A DNA stretch of 21,365 bases from positions 1-21,365 of IMG/VR virus record IMGVR_UViG_3300042332_001946. One strand, given 5' to 3'. The notes beneath the pieces were generated by a model, which was given only the letters and a program-made list of their open reading frames with translations, searched no databases and was not told the origin of the DNA. The position numbers were made by a program, and so were the translations under genes. This DNA is from a virus. Of this stretch, positions 3,565 through 21,250 are shown in pieces. The stretch's first letter is position 1. Every line of letters starts with the position of its first letter.

Positions 3565-4511
3565 GTTAAAAATATTTCTTCGAAGCGCTTCATTACGTTT
3601 TTTGGCGAAAATTGTTCAACGATTGTTTTACAATCTGCAGGAGTTATTTTATCATGTCGCTTTTTAAGGTTCGTGAGAATTACATTAAGCTGGCTTCCGT
3701 TCTCATACCAAATTCCTTTATCATTCAACAATTCAATATGATGCTTATCAAGACCACCTTTCCAGCTAATAACAGGCTTTCCTCCATGCAGGAACTCGCA
3801 AATCGCAAGACCAAAGCTCTCGCCATGATTTCTTCCGTGAATCATGTAATCACAGGTGTTAATAAAGTTAGATTTATTCTGAAGATTATGTGTTCCGTTA
3901 ACATGAATAATATTTGGATGTTCCGGTCCAAACGGTCTCGTGTTCATAAACAAGAAAGTAATATTTTTTCTAAATTGCAAAACATTATAAATTTCTTGGT
4001 GAACAAACGAAAGGTCAAATTCGCTTTGGCCACCATATCTTCCGATAACAATACTATCTTTTGGAATGTTGAGTGCTTCTCTGTAATTTTCACTTGGTTC
4101 TGGCAAGGAAACAATGTGAGGCACATAACTACCTTCCATGTTCATTTTGCTCGCTAGCCACTTTGAAACATATGCGTATTTGTCTCCGTGAATATCTTTA
4201 TTTTGGAATACTACATGAATCAAATTTTTGGCATTCGGAACAACTTTGCCGTCATTATCTCCAGCTTTAATATAATAAACGCAATCAATATTTTTATCTT
4301 CAACAAATTGATAGCAATCTTTGAAGTCTTCATACAAAAATACTTCAAAGCGCTTTTCGAATTTTTTCAAAGTTGCGAGATCTGCCTTTGCACTAGAAAT
4401 AATATAAGATTTATTTCCTAAAATTTCTTCATTGTAATGAGCATAATCATACAAAGCAACTTCTGTTCCTCGTATACCTAATTGATTTGAATGGAATGCA
4501 ATCGTTTTCAT
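3561..4511 (-). CDS. GT-B fold glycosyltransferase (GT4/GT1-like)
   Basis: 316 residues. The start at 4511 forms an ATGA overlap with the GT-A gene. The N-terminus (AFHSNQLGIRGTEVALYDYA) has the G-x-x-G-T-E loop common in GT-B enzymes. The middle (IVIGRYGGQSEF near 155-165) starts the C-terminal Rossmann domain. Residues 226-250 hold GRNHGESFGLAICEFLHGG and KPVISW, where the E-S-F-G-L...E segment is the classic donor-nucleotide site of family 4 transferases. It is slightly shorter than typical GT4 enzymes (350-400), as often in phages. It is expected to add a sugar from an NDP-sugar to a growing glycan in the cytoplasm. The sugar identity is unknown. Confidence 0.8.
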   Translation of the reverse strand: MKTIAFHSNQLGIRGTEVALYDYAHYNEEILGNKSYIISSAKADLATLKKFEKRFEVFLYEDFKDCYQFVEDKNIDCVYYIKAGDNDGKVVPNAKNLIHVVFQNKDIHGDKYAYVSKWLASKMNMEGSYVPHIVSLPEPSENYREALNIPKDSIVIGRYGGQSEFDLSFVHQEIYNVLQFRKNITFLFMNTRPFGPEHPNIIHVNGTHNLQNKSNFINTCDYMIHGRNHGESFGLAICEFLHGGKPVISWKGGLDKHHIELLNDKGIWYENGSQLNVILTNLKKRHDKITPADCKTIVEQFSPKNVMKRFEEIFLT

Positions 4512-6020: not shown

Positions 6021-6190
6021 TTATTTTTCTTCAGTTGTTGTGAACTGCCAGTAGGCTAAAGACCTACTGGCTTCAGGGTATAAATTCTACCCTTCTTTTT
6101 AAGAACTTCAACGCCAGTGCCTCTAGAAACCTTTGAGATCTCCTTTGGTCTTACCTTAGCTCCATTCCTGTTATCGACAGTTCCTGCCGA
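6020..6190 (-). ncRNA. Predicted omega RNA of tnpB (extent uncertain)
   Basis: In studied TnpB systems the guide RNA spans the 3' end of tnpB, the right-end hairpin and about 16-20 bases of flanking DNA as guide. Here that gives a scaffold ending at GTTCAC (6040) and a guide starting AACAACTGAAGAAAAATAAA (6039 downwards), just before the next gene's ATG at 6020. The 5' limit at about 6190 is a guess. I infer this from the family; the sequence shows only the hairpin and the element end. Confidence 0.4.
6047..6071 (-). repeat. Right-end hairpin of the tnpB element
   Basis: A perfect 9-bp stem (GCCAGTAGG at 6047-6055 with CCTACTGGC at 6063-6071) closes a 7-base loop. The tnpB stop codon (TAG on the minus strand) lies at the edge of the loop. 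This arrangement, with AGTTCAC just beyond it, is typical of IS200/IS605 right ends. In TnpB systems the hairpin forms the 3' scaffold of the omega RNA. Confidence 0.8.
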
Positions 6191-7279
6191 TTGAATTGCT
6201 AATGCTCTTCTTAAAATATTCTTTGAGGCATTAACATCTCTATCATGTATCGTGTTGCACTTTGAACAAGTCCAAGTTCTTTCATCTAATGAAAGACTTT
6301 CTTTGATATGATCACAGCAACTACATGTTTTGGAAGACGGATAGAAACGATCTATAACGATCACTTCCTTATCATTCCAGTGTGCTTTGTATTTTAATTT
6401 GGAGACAAAACTACTCCATGCTACATCTGATATTGCTTTAGAAAGACAATGGTTTTTAACCATTCCTTTTACATTTAGGTCTTCTATTGCTATCAGATCG
6501 TAGTCTTTTACTAACTTTGAAGAAACTTTGTGTTGCATGTCGTTACGAGAATTGGTTATCTTCTCGTGTACTTTAGCAACGCTCAAACGAGCTTTGTCTC
6601 TTCCTTTTGATCCTTTTTGTTTTCTACTTAAAATTCTTTGTTTTTTAGCTAACTTTGCTTCATACTTCTTAGTGAACTTAGGATTGCAGTATCTTTGTCC
6701 CTCTGAAGTAATAAGAAAGTCCTTTAATCCCAAATCTATTCCAATGCTTTTTCCAGTCTTTTTGTGTTTAGTTGGTTTTTCTACAACACAAAGAAAGGAG
6801 ATATAATATTTTCCAGAAGGATTTTTAGAAATATTTGCGCTCTTAATAACTCCTTTTAGTTCTCTATGCTTAATGAATTTCAACCCCTCTTTGAACTTTG
6901 GGACTTGAACTACGTTGTGTTCTTTCAAAGTTACATGTTGAGGAATCTGAAAAGAATTTTTGTTCTTTTTGGACTTGAATTTTGGAAATTTAGTTTGTTT
7001 TTTAAAAAAGCCTGTAAAAGCAGTTTCTAAATTCAACAGAGTAGAAACCAAGCATTGAGAATTGACTTCTTTGAGCCATTCATAACCCTCATCTTTTTTC
7101 TGCTTTATGAGCATATTTTGACAAGCATTGAATTTTAGTGTCTCTTTGTTTTCTAAGTAATGCTTTTGTTTTTCTTCGAGAAAGTGATTGTAAATGAACC
7201 TTGTGCAACCGAAGTGCTTTGCTAAAAGAACTTCTTGCTCCTTTGTAGGGAGCAAACGGAACTTGAATGCTTTGTGCAT
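6056..7279 (-). CDS. tnpB: TnpB, RNA-guided RuvC nuclease of IS200/IS605 family
   Basis: 407 residues from ATG 7279, chosen because AAAGAGAATGAA precedes it as a fair ribosome site and MHKAFKFRLLPTKEQE matches the usual TnpB start. A longer frame begins at 7315. RuvC I is GIDLGLKDF with Asp182, RuvC II is IAIEDLN with Glu266, and RuvC III is HDRDVNASKN with Asp348. A CxxC...CxxC zinc ribbon (Cys319/322 and 338/341) lies between II and III. All catalytic residues are present and the length is normal, so the protein looks active. TnpB cuts DNA using an omega RNA made from its own 3' end and right flank. Its last codons (TLKPVGL) run into the right-end hairpin. Confidence 0.93.
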   Translation of the reverse strand: MHKAFKFRLLPTKEQEVLLAKHFGCTRFIYNHFLEEKQKHYLENKETLKFNACQNMLIKQKKDEGYEWLKEVNSQCLVSTLLNLETAFTGFFKKQTKFPKFKSKKNKNSFQIPQHVTLKEHNVVQVPKFKEGLKFIKHRELKGVIKSANISKNPSGKYYISFLCVVEKPTKHKKTGKSIGIDLGLKDFLITSEGQRYCNPKFTKKYEAKLAKKQRILSRKQKGSKGRDKARLSVAKVHEKITNSRNDMQHKVSSKLVKDYDLIAIEDLNVKGMVKNHCLSKAISDVAWSSFVSKLKYKAHWNDKEVIVIDRFYPSSKTCSCCDHIKESLSLDERTWTCSKCNTIHDRDVNASKNILRRALAIQSAGTVDNRNGAKVRPKEISKVSRGTGVEVLKKKGRIYTLKPVGL

Positions 7280-7381
7280 TTCATTCTCTTTTAGTTCTTG
7301 TCCTTTCCCGATCATCTGTTATTACTTATCTCAGACGATGGTATTTTTTACAAAAAATATGAAAAAATATAAAAATATTTA

Positions 7382-11259: not shown

Positions 11260-12466
11260 AACAGATCTTTGCTAAAATTTGTTCTGCTGAAAAATTCTCA
11301 AGAACCATTTCTTGCAATGACGCAACAGTTATAGCTGGTTTGATTTTAATATCTTTCAAAGATTTGTCAAATAGCGGGAAAAAATTCTTAAAAAATGATT
11401 CAAGAATTTCGTTGCTAACATAGTTGATACCAATCTTTAAATCAAAACGACCAGGCCTCAGCAAAGCAGAATCAAGTTTTTCAATGTGATTTGTCGTGGC
11501 TATCAAGATTCTTCCATCAACTCCTGCAAAGCCATCAATTGCATTCAAAATTTCTGATAATCCAGCCATTCCTAGACCGCTTTTGAGTTTATCTGTATTG
11601 GTCTTGTGAACAAATTCTTCTTTAAAATCATCATCTTCTCGCGAATGCGTAAATGTTTGACAATCAATGTCCTCAATAACAATTACGCACTTTTCTTGCA
11701 ATTTTTCAAATGCATCTTCAATTTTAAGAAATGCATTTGTCGGAATATAATAAATTGGATAACTAAAGTGTGAAGCAATTGCTTTAATGAGGCTCGTTTT
11801 TCCGGTTCCCGGCGGTCCGTAAAGCATAATGCCAAGTTGATACGGAATCCCTTTCTCAAGGTACCAGTTTTCGTCCTTAATGAAAGATTCAATTCTTGAA
11901 ATTAACAAGTCTTTCTTTTCTTGCTCAATAAAAATAGAATCAAGACTTCTTTTATTGACATCTTTCAACCAATGCCAATCTCCATTATATTTGTGCAATT
12001 TAACTTTATTTTTCAAGTCGTGTTGCTTCTCAATTTCTGTGAGCAGATCCTGAAACAACGCTTTTGATCTTCCAAATTTAGTTATAACAACCAATTCCTT
12101 ATCTCTTTCTGTTTGATTTGCTTGATCTTTTTCTAACCAAACGAACAAAGGAGTTCTTTTAAACCAAATTACGTGCCAACCATAACCAACTGTAAATACA
12201 ACATTCTCTTCTCCCCATCTTCCGTTCGAGATTTTTAATTGACGAAAATTTTCATTCTTATAATTTGTTTCAATCCACTTTAAAAAATTATAAAAGCTGT
12301 TGTGTTGACTCGTTATCGTAACAGAAGTTGTAAACTCTCTCTTAAAGAAATTGACAATCTTTCCGGGAACATCTTTTAGCCAAAATGAAATAATGCCAGC
12401 ACTTCCCAAGCCCAAACCGGTCTGAAGAATGTGATTGTTAGCAATTATTTCAGTCAATAAACTCAT
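11252..12466 (-). CDS. BCS1-like AAA ATPase with N-terminal membrane segment
   Basis: 404 residues. Residues 12-30 (HILQTGLGLGSAGIISFWL) look like a membrane segment, as in mitochondrial BCS1, followed by a BCS1-N-like domain (about 45-200). The AAA core has GPPGTGKT at 217-224, VIVIEDID at 261-268, ATTN at 323-326 (sensor 1) and LRPGR at 336-340. GLSEILNAIDGFAGVDGRI is the BCS1 subgroup signature. BCS1 moves a folded protein across a membrane. Phage homologues are known, but their job is not established. It lies between uvsY and uvsW, where T4 has small genes, with ATGA overlap on one side and ATGAATGA on the other, so it is co-expressed with recombination genes. The link to recombination is inference. 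Confidence 0.85.
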   Translation of the reverse strand: MSLLTEIIANNHILQTGLGLGSAGIISFWLKDVPGKIVNFFKREFTTSVTITSQHNSFYNFLKWIETNYKNENFRQLKISNGRWGEENVVFTVGYGWHVIWFKRTPLFVWLEKDQANQTERDKELVVITKFGRSKALFQDLLTEIEKQHDLKNKVKLHKYNGDWHWLKDVNKRSLDSIFIEQEKKDLLISRIESFIKDENWYLEKGIPYQLGIMLYGPPGTGKTSLIKAIASHFSYPIYYIPTNAFLKIEDAFEKLQEKCVIVIEDIDCQTFTHSREDDDFKEEFVHKTNTDKLKSGLGMAGLSEILNAIDGFAGVDGRILIATTNHIEKLDSALLRPGRFDLKIGINYVSNEILESFFKNFFPLFDKSLKDIKIKPAITVASLQEMVLENFSAEQILAKICYE

Positions 12467-12876
12467 GTCGTTTCAAGAATTATAATCTTTGATAAATTAT
12501 TCATACCAAATTGTGCATCTCGCAAATTCATTTCTACCTTTGAAAGATACTCAACAAGAAATTCGTTGTTAGCAATTTCTTCATCAATTCTCACAATGGC
12601 TTCATGAGAAGCAATTGAATCTGAAATTGTTTTTGCATTCAGACCAACAGGAGATTCGTGTTCAATCTTTTGACGGAGTTTCTTGCAAGCAGATTCTTTA
12701 AGTTTTTTATAGCGTCCAATCTCTTGCTTATGGAACATTAGACGGCCAACCCAATAGTGCCTAACAGAAGCCAGGGTCATTTGAGCATCTTTCAAATTGA
12801 GTTCATCAAACTTTAGAAACTCAGCAATTTTTTCGTGATATTCGAGAAATAGATCAGCAGAAGATTTTTCAGACAT
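12463..12876 (-). CDS. uvsY: Probable UvsY recombination mediator
   Basis: 137 residues, the same length as T4 UvsY. It is helical and highly charged, with a central HYWVGRLMFHKQEIGRYKKLKESACKKLRQKIEHESP block that resembles the W...K...L...K..R pattern of the UvsY core, followed by a coiled-coil-like C-terminal half. Sequence identity to T4 is low, so the call relies on length, composition and position: in T4 uvsY is the neighbour of uvsW, separated only by tiny genes; here only the AAA ATPase separates them. UvsY loads the UvsX recombinase on gp32-coated single-stranded DNA. It forms an ATGA overlap with the ATPase gene. Confidence 0.6.
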   Translation of the reverse strand: MSEKSSADLFLEYHEKIAEFLKFDELNLKDAQMTLASVRHYWVGRLMFHKQEIGRYKKLKESACKKLRQKIEHESPVGLNAKTISDSIASHEAIVRIDEEIANNEFLVEYLSKVEMNLRDAQFGMNNLSKIIILETT

Positions 12877-13507
12877 AAAAATAGGCTAGATTGAATTGTT
12901 GATTAGAATTTTCGTCAACATAATAATTTTTAAAGCGTGGAAATATACCTTCGATCATTTTTATAAAAAAATTTAATTTTCTTTGTTCGCTTTTCAAAAT
13001 GTGGAAGTAAAGAATATCAGGAAACCTTTCGTTTCTTTCGTGAAGACTTGTTATAATTGCATCTCCAATGCCTTGAATAACCGAATAAGCATAATTCCCA
13101 AGTTTGTTCGTCGTTTTTATTTCATTTTCAGAATCTTTAAAATTTATAGTAATAATTGGATGATTGGTTTCGTCAACAGCTTTTTGCAAGCCAGCTAAAA
13201 AACGTCTATCTTCAAAATTCAAAAAAAGAGTATTTAACAAATTTTTATATATATGCTGCTTATCATAAAAGCTTACGCTTAACTCAAAAGACATACCATT
13301 AGTTGCAATTACTTCATACAAATCAGTATTTGCGTTCGAATCCACTTTTTCAAAAGACTCGTACAGCGGATACAAACTTTGTTTACAAATAATAAAAACA
13401 TCCCAAAAACGATCCCAGTTAAAATTATCTACGTTTTCAATTAGTAAATAATCATAGTTAGGGGCCTTTGTAGAATCATAAACTAACTCTAAGATTCTGT
13501 CGTTCAT
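12869..13507 (-). CDS. Unknown protein, paralogue of the 20585-21250 gene
   Basis: 212 residues, with no domain I can name. It aligns over its whole length with the protein at 20585-21250: shared blocks include LYESF/LYESL, DLYEVIATNG/DVYELVITNG, DILYFH/DIMFVH, FPRFKNYYVDEN/FPKFDKMFVDQT and the aromatic end LAYFYV/VAWFWK. It is soluble, aromatic-rich and acidic, with no signal or membrane segment. It lies just before uvsY, overlapping it by 8 bases. The paralogue opens the QueE block. A duplicated gene kept in two different operons suggests a real function, but I cannot say which. Confidence 0.9.
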   Translation of the reverse strand: MNDRILELVYDSTKAPNYDYLLIENVDNFNWDRFWDVFIICKQSLYPLYESFEKVDSNANTDLYEVIATNGMSFELSVSFYDKQHIYKNLLNTLFLNFEDRRFLAGLQKAVDETNHPIITINFKDSENEIKTTNKLGNYAYSVIQGIGDAIITSLHERNERFPDILYFHILKSEQRKLNFFIKMIEGIFPRFKNYYVDENSNQQFNLAYFYV

Positions 13508-14121: not shown

Positions 14122-15489
14122 ATGGAATATGAATTAGAAATAAACTCTGAAAACGAGCAAGCTCGAAAGACTAAGGTCTCTTATAGAACCTCTCGTCATA
14201 AGATCTTTCCTAACAAAGGAAAACAAGATTCTCTGAGCAATTTTATTTTTGAATATAAAGATTTAGTTTCTAAGCTAGTAGATCATGTTTGGTCAGTAGG
14301 ATATGCTGACTACCATCCTTCTAAAGGATCTTTTGAGGCACCAAAGTTCTTTGATAGTACTTTTTTAGAAACATTTAAAACTTCTTTAGGAGGAATGTTG
14401 AGACAAACAGCAGGTCTTCAAGCTCTTGCTATTTTAAAATCTGCTACTACAAAACACTCTAAAAGAGTTTATCAATTGAAAAAACTTCAAAAGAAACAGA
14501 GCAAAGGAGAAGCTTCTTCAAAGGAACAAAAGAGCATAAAGATCCTCCAAAGCAAAGTTAACAAGAATTCCCTCGTTAAGCCTTCTCTTCCTAACGACTT
14601 TAAAATAACCATTTCAAGACCAGACGTTATCAAGGTCTTTAAACAGAACAAGGAAGGATCTAATTTTTCTTTTGATGAGTTCATAAGACTTTCATTAGCA
14701 GGAAATCATGGAACACTAGCAGTTCCTTTAAATCACCACAAGCATTCTAAGAAACTTTTAAAGAAATGTGCTAAAAGAAAGATATCTGCTATAACGCTTT
14801 TAAATGACAAAGAAGTGGATTTGATCTGGGAAATTGAAGTAAAAGAAAAGACTGAAGGAGAAGTAGTTGGATGTGATCAAGGAGTCACTACTTGTTTGAG
14901 CATGTCTGATGGACAGACTACTCCGAAGAACAAACACGGAAAAGACCTTTCAGACATTCAAAAGACCCTTTCGAGAAGAAAGCCAGATTCCAAAGGATAC
15001 AAAAGAGCACAAGCTGAACGAAAGAACTACGTAAATTGGTGCTTGAATGAGCTTAACTTCAGCAACGTAAAAGAAGTTCGCTTAGAAAAGATTTTTCAAA
15101 TAAGAAAAGGAAAAAACACCTCTTCGTATTTGAAGAGATGGAAATACACTCTGATAAAAGAGAAGCTAGAAAGACTCGGCGAGACAGAAGGTTTCTGTGT
15201 AACTGAAGTTCCTAACAAGTTTCGTTCTCAGAGGTGTAATCAGTGCGGTTATGTTAACAAGAAGAATAGAAAAGGAAAGACATTCCTCTGTAAAAAGTGC
15301 TCTTATAGTGCTGATGCAGATATGAATGCTGCTGCCAATCTAAGACTCTGCCTCTGCGAGGTCCCGTTATGGGTGTTTGATCGACAAATCAACAGGACAG
15401 GATTTTTCTGGACTGAAGATGCAGTGATCATGGAGGAGCAAGTAATCCCTCCAAACAGCAAAAGCTTAGATAAAATTAAACATTTATGA
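14122..15489 (+). CDS. Divergent TnpB-like nuclease (OrfB, zinc ribbon)
   Basis: 455 residues. The C-terminal half has the TnpB/RuvC order: VVGCDQGVTT with Asp252, VKEVRLEKI with Glu322, the zinc ribbon RCNQCG...FLCKKC (Cys372/375 and 390/393), and YSADADMNAAANL with Asp400. The N-terminal 240 residues are Lys-rich and unlike the first TnpB. The fold should bind a guide RNA and cut DNA, and all catalytic residues are present. There is no TnpA. The 45-residue tail after the RuvC III motif (PLWVFDRQINRTGFFW...) is unusual for TnpB. It stands alone on the plus strand against the surrounding minus-strand blocks, flanked by a structured leader and a long structured gap, which suggests a mobile or domesticated unit. 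Confidence 0.85.
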   Translation: MEYELEINSENEQARKTKVSYRTSRHKIFPNKGKQDSLSNFIFEYKDLVSKLVDHVWSVGYADYHPSKGSFEAPKFFDSTFLETFKTSLGGMLRQTAGLQALAILKSATTKHSKRVYQLKKLQKKQSKGEASSKEQKSIKILQSKVNKNSLVKPSLPNDFKITISRPDVIKVFKQNKEGSNFSFDEFIRLSLAGNHGTLAVPLNHHKHSKKLLKKCAKRKISAITLLNDKEVDLIWEIEVKEKTEGEVVGCDQGVTTCLSMSDGQTTPKNKHGKDLSDIQKTLSRRKPDSKGYKRAQAERKNYVNWCLNELNFSNVKEVRLEKIFQIRKGKNTSSYLKRWKYTLIKEKLERLGETEGFCVTEVPNKFRSQRCNQCGYVNKKNRKGKTFLCKKCSYSADADMNAAANLRLCLCEVPLWVFDRQINRTGFFWTEDAVIMEEQVIPPNSKSLDKIKHL

Positions 15490-15506
15490 TAATTTTATAT
15501 GTTAAA

Positions 15507-15865
15507 AGCGATTATATATAATTCTTATAAGTTATAAGAAGCAATTAATAATAATCTCCTCAATTCAGATCGAAGGAGGGAGGTCCCCCATTGCTGGGAA
15601 AACCTTCCTCCTGTATTTTACTCCTTCAAACGAGTCTCAGTCGGGTTAACAAACTTCAGATAGTCTTTCTCTATCAAGCTCCCTCGGTTGTCCTGTAAGA
15701 GCATTTTGTTTGAGTGGTCCTAGCTTTCGCTAGACAACGGTCACGCAATAGCGCACTTCGAGATGTGTTTTTAATTTATGAATCGCTGATCCTTGTTGTT
15801 TATCTCACTACTGAGACCCGCTATAACGCTTTGGCTAGGGCTAACAGACGATGAAAGAAACGTCG
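15507..15865 (+). ncRNA. Candidate structured RNA downstream of the second tnpB
   Basis: This lies in the 417-base gap 15490-15906, which has no ORF of note. It is GC-richer than its surroundings (about 44% by hand count over 15541-15840, against roughly a third in genes). Helices seen: 15574-15584 with 15602-15612 (11 bp, one wobble), with CCCA/TGGG inside; GTCTCAGT 15634-15641 with ACTGAGAC 15810-15817 (8 bp, long range), continued by AACAA 15648-15652 with TTGTT 15793-15797; GATAG/CTATC 15659/15671; GTTGT 15687 with ACAAC 15734; CTAGC/GCTAG 15720/15729; GACG/CGTC 15847/15861; AGCGATT 15507 with AATCGCT 15781. It could be a long omega RNA of the TnpB, or an unrelated phage RNA. The class was not recognised. 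Confidence 0.55.
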
Positions 15866-15893
15866 AACAGTTATTGTAAAAGTCAACCAATTT

Positions 15894-15901
15894 GATAAAT
15901 A
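15894..15901 (+). promoter_or_regulatory. T4-type late promoter-like element
   Basis: GATAAATA, followed by CT, differs from the T4 late consensus TATAAATA at one base. It faces the two tagged small genes. A start about 6 bases downstream would fall almost on the ATG at 15907, so the mRNA would be leaderless or the element may not be used. The gp55-like factor in this window would be its reader. Confidence 0.35.
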
Positions 15902-15906
15902 CTTTC

Positions 15907-16140
15907 ATGGAATTTCAAAAAATAGTCGAAGAGCTTCTACAGGAAGACATGACAGCTGGAGGAGAAGGTTCTTCTTTTGGTCCGGGAGTTGTTAATACTG
16001 CCGATCAATTTAGCAGTGACTCTTATGCTCCAGGAGATGCTCGCACCCCTTCGAGTATTTTTGGAGGAGCTGTTCTTGCAAGAGGTGGTCTGAAAAAAAT
16101 CAAAAAGAGAAAATTAAAAAAGAAATCTCGTAAAAAGTAA
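15907..16140 (+). CDS. Small basic protein with capsid-targeting-like N-terminus
   Basis: 77 residues from the ATG at 15907; the frame opens at a TTG at 15892, but the ATG matches the next gene's start. MEFQKIVEELLQE is an amphipathic helix ending in an LQE tripeptide, which fits the (L/I)xE cut site of T4-type prohead protease gp21. T4 internal head proteins carry a similar short capsid-targeting tag removed by gp21. The middle is Gly/Ser-rich with SYAPGDART, and the last 17 residues (GLKKIKKRKLKKKSRKK) are strongly basic, suited to DNA binding. An internal head protein packed with the DNA is a reasonable inference. One base separates it from the next gene. Confidence 0.75.
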   Translation: MEFQKIVEELLQEDMTAGGEGSSFGPGVVNTADQFSSDSYAPGDARTPSSIFGGAVLARGGLKKIKKRKLKKKSRKK

Positions 16141-16170
16141 TATGGAATTTCAAAAAATAGTCGAAGAGCT
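15907..16170 (+). repeat. 29-base direct repeat at two gene starts
   Basis: Positions 15907-15935 and 16142-16170 are identical and encode the same first nine residues (MEFQKIVEE) with no silent change, then the sequences diverge. The copies are 235 bases apart. This implies a recent duplication, gene conversion, or selection on the nucleotide sequence at the start. Confidence 0.9.
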
Positions 16171-16504
16171 GTTAGATGAAAATGTTGCTCTAGGAAAAGA
16201 TGACAAGAAGAAGGGAATTATTGCAGTAAATTTTACAACAAAAACAGGTCTGTATGCTTCTGCACAAACCGGAACTTCTGCTGGTGTGCTTGCTCCTCAA
16301 TTTCAAACTGCTTCTAGCGGAGGTTCGAAGAGCTCTGGTGAACAATCTAATATCGGAGCGGAAGAGGATACATCAGCAACAAGAAAGTCAAATTATCGAA
16401 AGAATTCTTCCAGAGGTTGTAGAGGCAGCACAAAAAATAATTCAAAGGGAAGTAAAAGAACGATTGTCAAATATAAACCAGTAGATTTTGGAGGCAAATT
16501 GTAA
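16142..16504 (+). CDS. Second tagged small protein, possible internal head protein
   Basis: 120 residues. It starts with the same MEFQKIVEELL as the gene before it, followed by DE, so an LDE tripeptide ends the tag at residue 13, again matching the gp21-type site. The rest is low-complexity, Ser/Gly/Thr-rich (TASSGGSKSSGEQSN), then basic (RKSNYRKNSSRGCRGSTKNN). There are no recognisable domains. The shared tag, late-promoter-like element upstream and basic tail suggest co-packaging into the head. Its stop overlaps the next ATG by one base (TAATG). Confidence 0.75.
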   Translation: MEFQKIVEELLDENVALGKDDKKKGIIAVNFTTKTGLYASAQTGTSAGVLAPQFQTASSGGSKSSGEQSNIGAEEDTSATRKSNYRKNSSRGCRGSTKNNSKGSKRTIVKYKPVDFGGKL

Positions 16505-16961: not shown

Positions 16962-17378
16962 ATGAGAACAAAAACCTTTCCGAAAGCTAGAGTTTGTGTT
17001 ATTGATATCTATCCTTCGTTCGAAGAAGGTCTAAAAAAGGCTATAAAATTCTCTCAAGAGCACAACATAATGCTCAATAGTGCTGATGGCAGAAAGCTTA
17101 TTGTTAGTTATTGCATCAAAGCAATAGAAAATGATTATACTCAAACCCCCAGTCCTTTTCCAAAAGTTCTCTGTATGGCTTCAGAGCCAGTTAATAAAAA
17201 GATTCAAACATTCATTGATAACTATTTTAAAAGTATCATGAAATATGTTCCAATGCCCTATTGTGGAGCTATAAAGCTTGAGTCTCCAGATTTAGAAAGT
17301 GCTGCTGAAAATAGTTTGAAACAACAGAAGACTCAAAGAAAGTTTCAGAAGCTTAGCACCAGACTAAAGTTAAAATAA
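16962..17378 (+). CDS. Unknown small protein
   Basis: 138 residues, 35 bases after the GIY-YIG gene and ending one base before the convergent gene at 17380. I see no known domain. RVCVIDIYPSFEEGLKKAIKF looks like a beta-alpha unit and the C-terminus is basic (LKQQKTQRKFQKLSTRLKLK). No ribosome site is clear upstream (TATCATATTCCAC). No membrane segment. Confidence 0.7.
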   Translation: MRTKTFPKARVCVIDIYPSFEEGLKKAIKFSQEHNIMLNSADGRKLIVSYCIKAIENDYTQTPSPFPKVLCMASEPVNKKIQTFIDNYFKSIMKYVPMPYCGAIKLESPDLESAAENSLKQQKTQRKFQKLSTRLKLK

Positions 17379-20584: not shown

Positions 20585-21250
20585 TTACAAAATACTTTTT
20601 TCAACAGAACTTTTCCAAAACCAAGCAACATCATAATCTGCTGCAGTTTGATCTACAAACATTTTATCAAATTTAGGAAAAGCATCTTTGAAAAATCTTT
20701 GATAAATTTTCAAGCGTCTCGGTTCTCTTTTATCTAGATGGACAAACATAATGTCTGAAGGATGATCAAATCTTTTTAATTTGCTTTGATTGATTGCATC
20801 CAAGACACCTCCAAATACGCCTGTTGAATAATTTCTGACAAGATTTGTTTGATTTGTATTTTTGTGTTCGTCTTCAAAATAAACATGCATTATTGGTTGT
20901 TGCGTGTTCGAAAAGGCGTTGGATAAACTAACTACATCTTCATTCGTTCTGTTATCAAAAGCAAGCATCATGATATTATTTGATAATTTTTGCTTTTGGA
21001 TGAAGTTAACAGCAACTTTAAATTTCAAACCATTTGTTATTACAAGTTCATAAACATCTTGTTCAGGCGTGTCTTTAAGAAGTGTTAAAGATTCATATAG
21101 TTGGAAAATTGCAGTCTGACAAAGAACAAATCTTGACCAAATAAAATCCCAATCTTTTTCAATGGTTAGATGTTCAAACAAAAGAATATCTGTCCGCTCT
21201 CTACAGGTAGCATCATAGAGCATTTCTAACTTTTGAATATCTCTGTTCAT
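20585..21250 (-). CDS. Unknown protein, paralogue of the 12869-13507 gene
   Basis: 221 residues, 16 bases before the QueE ATG and 12 bases after the partial gene upstream, so it belongs to the same operon. It shares with the 12869-13507 protein the blocks LYESL, DVYELVITNG, DIMFVH, FPKFDKMFVD and an aromatic C-terminus (VAWFWK), spread over the whole length. I know no domain with these motifs. It is soluble with no signal or membrane segment. Position next to QueE hints at modified-nucleotide metabolism, but the paralogue sits next to uvsY, so the role is open. Confidence 0.88.
   Translation of the reverse strand: MNRDIQKLEMLYDATCRERTDILLFEHLTIEKDWDFIWSRFVLCQTAIFQLYESLTLLKDTPEQDVYELVITNGLKFKVAVNFIQKQKLSNNIMMLAFDNRTNEDVVSLSNAFSNTQQPIMHVYFEDEHKNTNQTNLVRNYSTGVFGGVLDAINQSKLKRFDHPSDIMFVHLDKREPRRLKIYQRFFKDAFPKFDKMFVDQTAADYDVAWFWKSSVEKSIL

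Follow-up and report, generated by a model that had tools for sequence, protein, structure and literature searches.

The window analysed here, a 21,365-nt stretch of viral DNA, contains a predicted structured RNA gene of about 300 nt that covariation beyond controls identifies as a conserved structured RNA. The gene would be non-coding, would be read from 15852 to about 15545 on the minus strand, and belongs to an uncultured T4-like phage lineage. Judged by its sequence and its homologues, the predicted product is a previously undescribed folded RNA matching no recognised class, and it is most likely a new structured phage RNA that has its own promoter and acts in trans, a reading given a probability of roughly 0.55. 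To our knowledge, few phage non-coding RNAs of such size have been described, and their roles are poorly understood. The RNA is located at the recombination/late-transcription cluster of this lineage, and its conservation above the surrounding genes, promoter-like box at fixed spacing, and covariation-backed fold make concrete tests possible.

Homologues and fold of the RNA

The RNA lies in the gap between tnpB2 and the next CDS, where the 417-base length and raised GC content (42–46% vs 17–36% in most AT-rich stretches nearby) that had drawn attention to the locus in a sequence-only reading are both confirmed. One sequence by itself makes a weak case and would not have proved a structured RNA. 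The plus-strand fold of the gap reaches −98.4 kcal/mol with a z-score of −1.70, a borderline result in that 6 of 100 shuffles fold equally well, and local z-scores from sliding windows in the gap are no better than those of neighbouring coding DNA. The sole notable piece of the gap by single-sequence folding is the 11-bp hairpin already pointed out in the sequence-only reading, found at 15574–15612 with a z-score of about −3 when folded alone.

The route to relatives led from the window gene at 16962–17378 to contig L252, and an alignment of the window and L252 UvsW proteins then recovered 17 contigs with UvsW 59–77% identical, nearly all of which carry the RNA region. Scans of IMG/VR with single proteins, a broad UvsW alignment or a conserved 16-mer missed the relatives or found L252 alone. 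By blastn, homologues of the RNA region occur in 14 or more contigs from related, uncultured T4-like phages, a lower bound from metagenomic contigs that are all mutually related. In nearly all relatives the RNA is positioned between the uvsY-like gene and a gene whose product begins with MEFQKIVEELL. Mean DNA identity to the window RNA is 78.3%, compared with 65.1–73.0% for seven flanking genes; in L252, from which TnpB2 is absent, the RNA region is 76–77% identical, again above the coding genes of that contig. This conservation fades near 15545. A covariance model of the RNA core identifies a single copy in this T4-like lineage only, a search with the RNA model of about 45 other T4-like contigs found none, and BLASTN of the RNA against isolate phages and plasmids returned nothing. 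Indels are not confined to multiples of three, and no small ORF on the RNA strand is conserved across relatives, suggesting that the region is unlikely to be coding. Both flanks of the RNA gene resemble insertion hot spots (window, L270, L272, L276, L277, L280, L283, and L284), with genes that differ between phages, including TnpB2, a methyltransferase, capsid-type genes, and genes of unknown function.

Covariation was found in a 13-phage alignment in the minus orientation, in which eight helices including one pseudoknot (Table 1) are paired in 96.7% of 636 base-pair cells, the helices having been chosen on the same alignment on which they are counted. Both-sided, compensatory changes occur at 17 of 49 pairs (40 cells), a level reached by 0 of 500 shuffles, and slid structures, used as a control, are paired in 42–50% of cells. 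A first pass in the plus orientation gave 98.9% of cells paired for five core helices including the pseudoknot, with 11 of 21 pairs compensatory, and 94.7% for the other domain, with 6 of 12; the core and the 5′ domain, scored separately, agree with the eight-helix result. Chance folding of ordinary intergenic DNA would fit the single-sequence z-score of only −1.7, but is ruled out by covariation and is hardly credible for a region that is conserved above coding genes and shows compensatory changes in seven helices.

In the predicted fold, helix G would close the 5′ domain, the pseudoknot would lock a central three-way junction made of helix B and hairpins C and F, and hairpin E would form a strong stem toward the 3′ end. 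Long-range pairing is supported for helix G, ATCG(T)CTG with CAGCGAT, and for helix B, CAAAC with GTTTG, the latter paired in 100% of cells with compensatory changes in two of five pairs. Hairpin E is paired in 93% of cells with one-sided changes only, and its support is thus weaker; hairpin F, which lies within helix B and varies, was spotted by eye. The structured RNA anticipated from the single sequence has gained covariation support in eight helices, although the 8-bp long-range closure then proposed differs from the supported one. A proposed CTCCT/AGGAG switch lacks conservation, with TTCCGG at that place in relatives, and the original extent of 15507–15865 is corrected to about 15545–15852.

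Table 1. Positions of the predicted RNA, its helices and promoter-like elements, and neighbouring features in the window.
Feature	Position	Strand	Remarks
Structured non-coding RNA gene, ~300 nt	15545..15852	−	blastn homologues, covariation; minus favoured
−35-like box TTGACT	15881..15886	−	28 nt upstream of RNA 5′ end
−10-like region GACGTTT	15858..15864	−	relatives gAyATTa
5′ domain	15782..15852	−	helix G (15852-15845 with 15788-15782) closes hairpin A (15816-15812 with 15807-15803)
Hairpin J	15742..15755	−	TGCGC/GCGTG
Pseudoknot	15687..15738	−	GUUGU (15738-15734) with ACAAC (15691-15687, loop of hairpin C)
Hairpin D	15720..15733	−	CTAGC/GCTAG
Helix B	15650..15712	−	15712-15708 with 15654-15650; encloses hairpins C and F
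Hairpin C	15678..15702	−	GCUCUU/GGGAGC; 100% of cells paired, compensatory changes
3′ hairpin E	15579..15607	−	GAAGGUUUUCC/GGGGGACCUCC with U-G pairs; the 11-bp hairpin of the sequence-only reading
Gap from tnpB2 to next CDS (15907)	15490-15906		417 bases
TnpB2, divergent TnpB/Cas12f-like nuclease, independent mobile element	14122..15489	+	RuvC D252, E322, D400 present
Putative TnpB2 guide-RNA hairpin inside tnpB2 coding end	15431..15453	+	TGGAGG, 11-nt loop, CCTCCA
ATTAT, putative 3′ pseudoknot strand and scaffold end	15511..15515	+	pairs with loop GTAAT (15442-15446); one G-U
Expected TnpB2 guide segment, just outside element	15516..15535	+	inferred from homology break at ~15520
UvsY-like gene	12463..12876	−	synteny and weak profile match
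Small protein, MEFQKIVEELL N-terminus	15907..16140	+	divergent neighbour of RNA in relatives

Strand, candidate promoter and possible function

Contrary to the plus strand implied by the sequence-only reading, the minus strand is favoured by consensus folding (−51.6 vs −39.4 kcal/mol), including in each of three sub-regions, and by the tally of G-U versus A-C cells in the minus orientation (95 vs 9), a count with some circularity, since the extension of helices C, E, and J was made in that orientation. The pairs first picked in the plus orientation give a tally of about 6 vs 3, also favouring minus. A plus-strand RNA leading into the MEFQKIVEELL gene at 15907 as its 5′ leader would account for the several relatives in which the RNA stops a few bases short of this gene; it is very unlikely, however, given the clearly worse consensus fold on that strand, the TTAAATA-type box between RNA and gene just before the ATG, and the 337–957 nt that separate gene and RNA in L272, L276, L277, and L283.

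The box in question (15893–15907; TTAAATA/ATAAATA in the window and relatives) resembles T4 late promoters, and its closeness to the ATG means that the transcript might be leaderless. The genes at 15907–16140 and 16142–16504 encode tandem small proteins sharing the MEFQKIVEELL N-terminus, with similar starts in relatives; this sequence resembles the T4 capsid-targeting sequence of internal proteins. Elsewhere on the window contig, 12869–13507 and 20585–21250 are apparent paralogues of unknown function.

Ahead of the RNA, as the minus strand is read, each of the 14 sequences has a TTGAC-type box at a spacing of 27–28 nt from helix G, and among the promoter-like positions T is invariant at −33 and −7 (14/14) and A occurs at −11 in 10 of 14. 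The box and the weak −10 fit a candidate sigma-70 promoter, which a simple consensus promoter scan did not call, and the position of the box places the RNA 5′ end near 15852. The 3′ boundary, at about 15565–15545, is not fixed. No intrinsic terminator was found at the RNA 3′ end, the only terminator-like matches being weak ones within hairpins J and E, such that the RNA may continue into downstream genes.

In the favoured reading, a sigma-70-type promoter belonging to the RNA itself would direct synthesis of a discrete transcript, working in trans as a folded RNA that binds either protein or itself. Conservation above protein genes, the RNA's own promoter-like box, and persistence beside varied neighbours together favour action in trans. 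In most relatives, the uvsY-like gene, whose profile match is weak (PHROG 231, E ~1e-4 in relatives), follows the RNA in the same orientation, starting 57–100 nt beyond it. This arrangement is also compatible with a cis-acting leader that controls transcription or translation of the uvsY-uvsW-gp55-gp47 operon in the manner of a riboswitch or attenuator, as is the failure to find a terminator between the RNA and uvsY; however, this reading is unlikely, as the RNA is not always upstream of the same gene and the fold is kept where other genes lie directly downstream (L270, L280, and L284) or where TnpB2 opposes it (window), which favours an independent RNA, and no alternative terminator/antiterminator pairing was seen.

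Another reading takes the locus for the counterpart of a T4 replication origin. The T4 oriF, or ori(uvsY), combines a promoter with an A+T-rich unwinding element in about 100 bp; R-loops serve as primers there, and UvsW acts in unwinding (PMC3016281). A counterpart here would be a structured primer whose 3′ part is R-looped in the A+T-rich stretch before uvsY, and on the way toward uvsY the locus presents first a promoter-like box, then a G run (in most relatives), and lastly T-rich DNA. The box is found in all sequences and the T-rich and G-run stretches in most; some relatives lack G and T runs, however, and T4 oriF is not described as requiring a structured RNA. GC skew in a 217-kb relative has no turning point at the locus and is uninformative. 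An origin RNA of this kind is an unlikely explanation, and the same low probability attaches to its extension, in which the RNA would found a new pseudoknotted phage class of structured origin or primer, read toward uvsY and resolved by UvsW, making this an RNA-structured ori(uvsY).

The adjacent TnpB2 element and its predicted guide RNA

TnpB2 matches PF07282 with its three catalytic residues aligned and is related to Cas12f-like proteins; members of its family occur in phage records and IMG/VR contigs. The closest relative, in L181, is 65% identical and occupies a different insertion site, and the two elements are homologous at the DNA level as far as about 15519–15520 and no further, which marks the right end of the TnpB2 element. 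Across the family, the end of tnpB carries a hairpin with a constant 11-nt loop and many differing stems (AGAGG/CCTCT, ATGGG/CCCAT, TTGGG/CCCAA, CAGGG/CCCTG, CGGGG/CCCCG, and GGAGG/CCTCC), and five loop bases pair with the strand directly before the guide (ATAGT/ACTAT, ACAGT/ACTGT, ATAGC/GCTAT, ATAGA/TCTAT, ATCAT/ATGAT, and GTAGT/ACTAC). TnpB omega RNA carries this kind of pseudoknot (PMC10097598). An automatic test found a perfect pseudoknot partner in 19 of 30 loci, where 5.0 would be expected, and a hand-made table gave 105 of 105 cells paired, but with pairs picked by eye. In the window the automatic search picked another hairpin, and GTAAT/ATTAT was assigned through homology to L181 and the family pattern. 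As a by-product of the analysis, the guide-RNA end of a divergent phage TnpB family is now defined with support from covariation.

With the TnpB2 guide RNA placed at 15431–15515, the structured region beyond 15520 would not be guide RNA. The proposal that the RNA is the omega RNA, or guide scaffold, of this divergent TnpB drew on its location directly downstream of tnpB2 and is now exceedingly improbable: the L181 element shares DNA only to about 15520 and the RNA starts beyond that point, the family hairpin and pseudoknot lie upstream of it, the RNA is on the strand opposite tnpB2, and RNA homologues exist without TnpB2, which apart from the window is carried by no phage found with the RNA, L252 included, and for which contigs L270–L287 gave no match. 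Folding the empty site, its two sides joined as if TnpB2 had not inserted, gave a result no better than chance. TnpB2 has no connection with the RNA; it would be an RNA-guided element of the homing type that inserted immediately 3′ of the RNA gene and faces the other way.

Several observations concern TnpB elements more broadly. Near-identical divergent TnpB elements occupy different insertion sites in L007, L008, L010, and L011, with two in one contig; three have a small ribbon-helix-helix-like ORF immediately upstream of tnpB, and the L008 element splits an HNH-like gene of which both flanks read through in frame. In L014 (~2520–2560 and 3750–3765), a TnpB element lies between 13-bp direct repeats (TACATCGCATCAA), and the repeat rebuilds the end of the upstream gene that the element interrupts, a pattern that homing by repair would leave and classical transposition would not. 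A small C2H2 zinc-finger-like ORF (YKCSVCNKEFEKSQQLNGHSHAH) is found just upstream of the TnpB2 relative in L181 (2780–2920). In L184, L185, L186, and L192, in-frame stops break tnpB at or after the DAD motif, with the guide-RNA hairpin and pseudoknot retained. The window carries a second TnpB at 6056–7315, of the ordinary IS200/IS605 type, in a glycosyltransferase cluster, with no TnpA noticed.

Comparison with known RNAs

With E allowed up to 10, the window, L252, L283, and L276 showed no meaningful match to Rfam covariance models, ARAGORN identified no tRNA or tmRNA in the window or eight relatives, and a literature search of partial coverage found no such RNA named. The absence of any Rfam match beyond noise in these four phages, together with the strong covariation, upholds the earlier description of a large structured RNA outside any recognised class. 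A group I intron was considered because of the crossed helices and rejected, with no R/S motifs by eye and no Rfam match.

ColE1 RNA II, a structured transcript with a G run after it, can prime replication; it serves here as an analogy only, belonging to a plasmid and not a phage and having no sequence relation to the RNA described here. The suggested likeness to GOLLD and ROOL holds in that these are likewise large, multi-helix, pseudoknotted, non-coding phage RNAs of unknown function, whereas the present RNA is much shorter at about 300 nt, is without nearby tRNA genes, and has no detected homology to them, with no Rfam match to either model. Many GOLLD members exceed 800 nt (PMC12286853). 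The omega RNA of ISDra2 TnpB likewise has a pseudoknot and a tnpB gene next to it, but overlaps the tnpB 3′ end and the element right end on the tnpB strand (PMC10097598); the RNA here is encoded beyond the TnpB2 element and on the strand opposite tnpB2, with the omega role probably filled by 15431–15515. No structured RNA is described at T4 oriF (PMC3016281), but its transcript is likewise read toward uvsY from just upstream in a T4-like phage, as the RNA predicted here from sequence would be.
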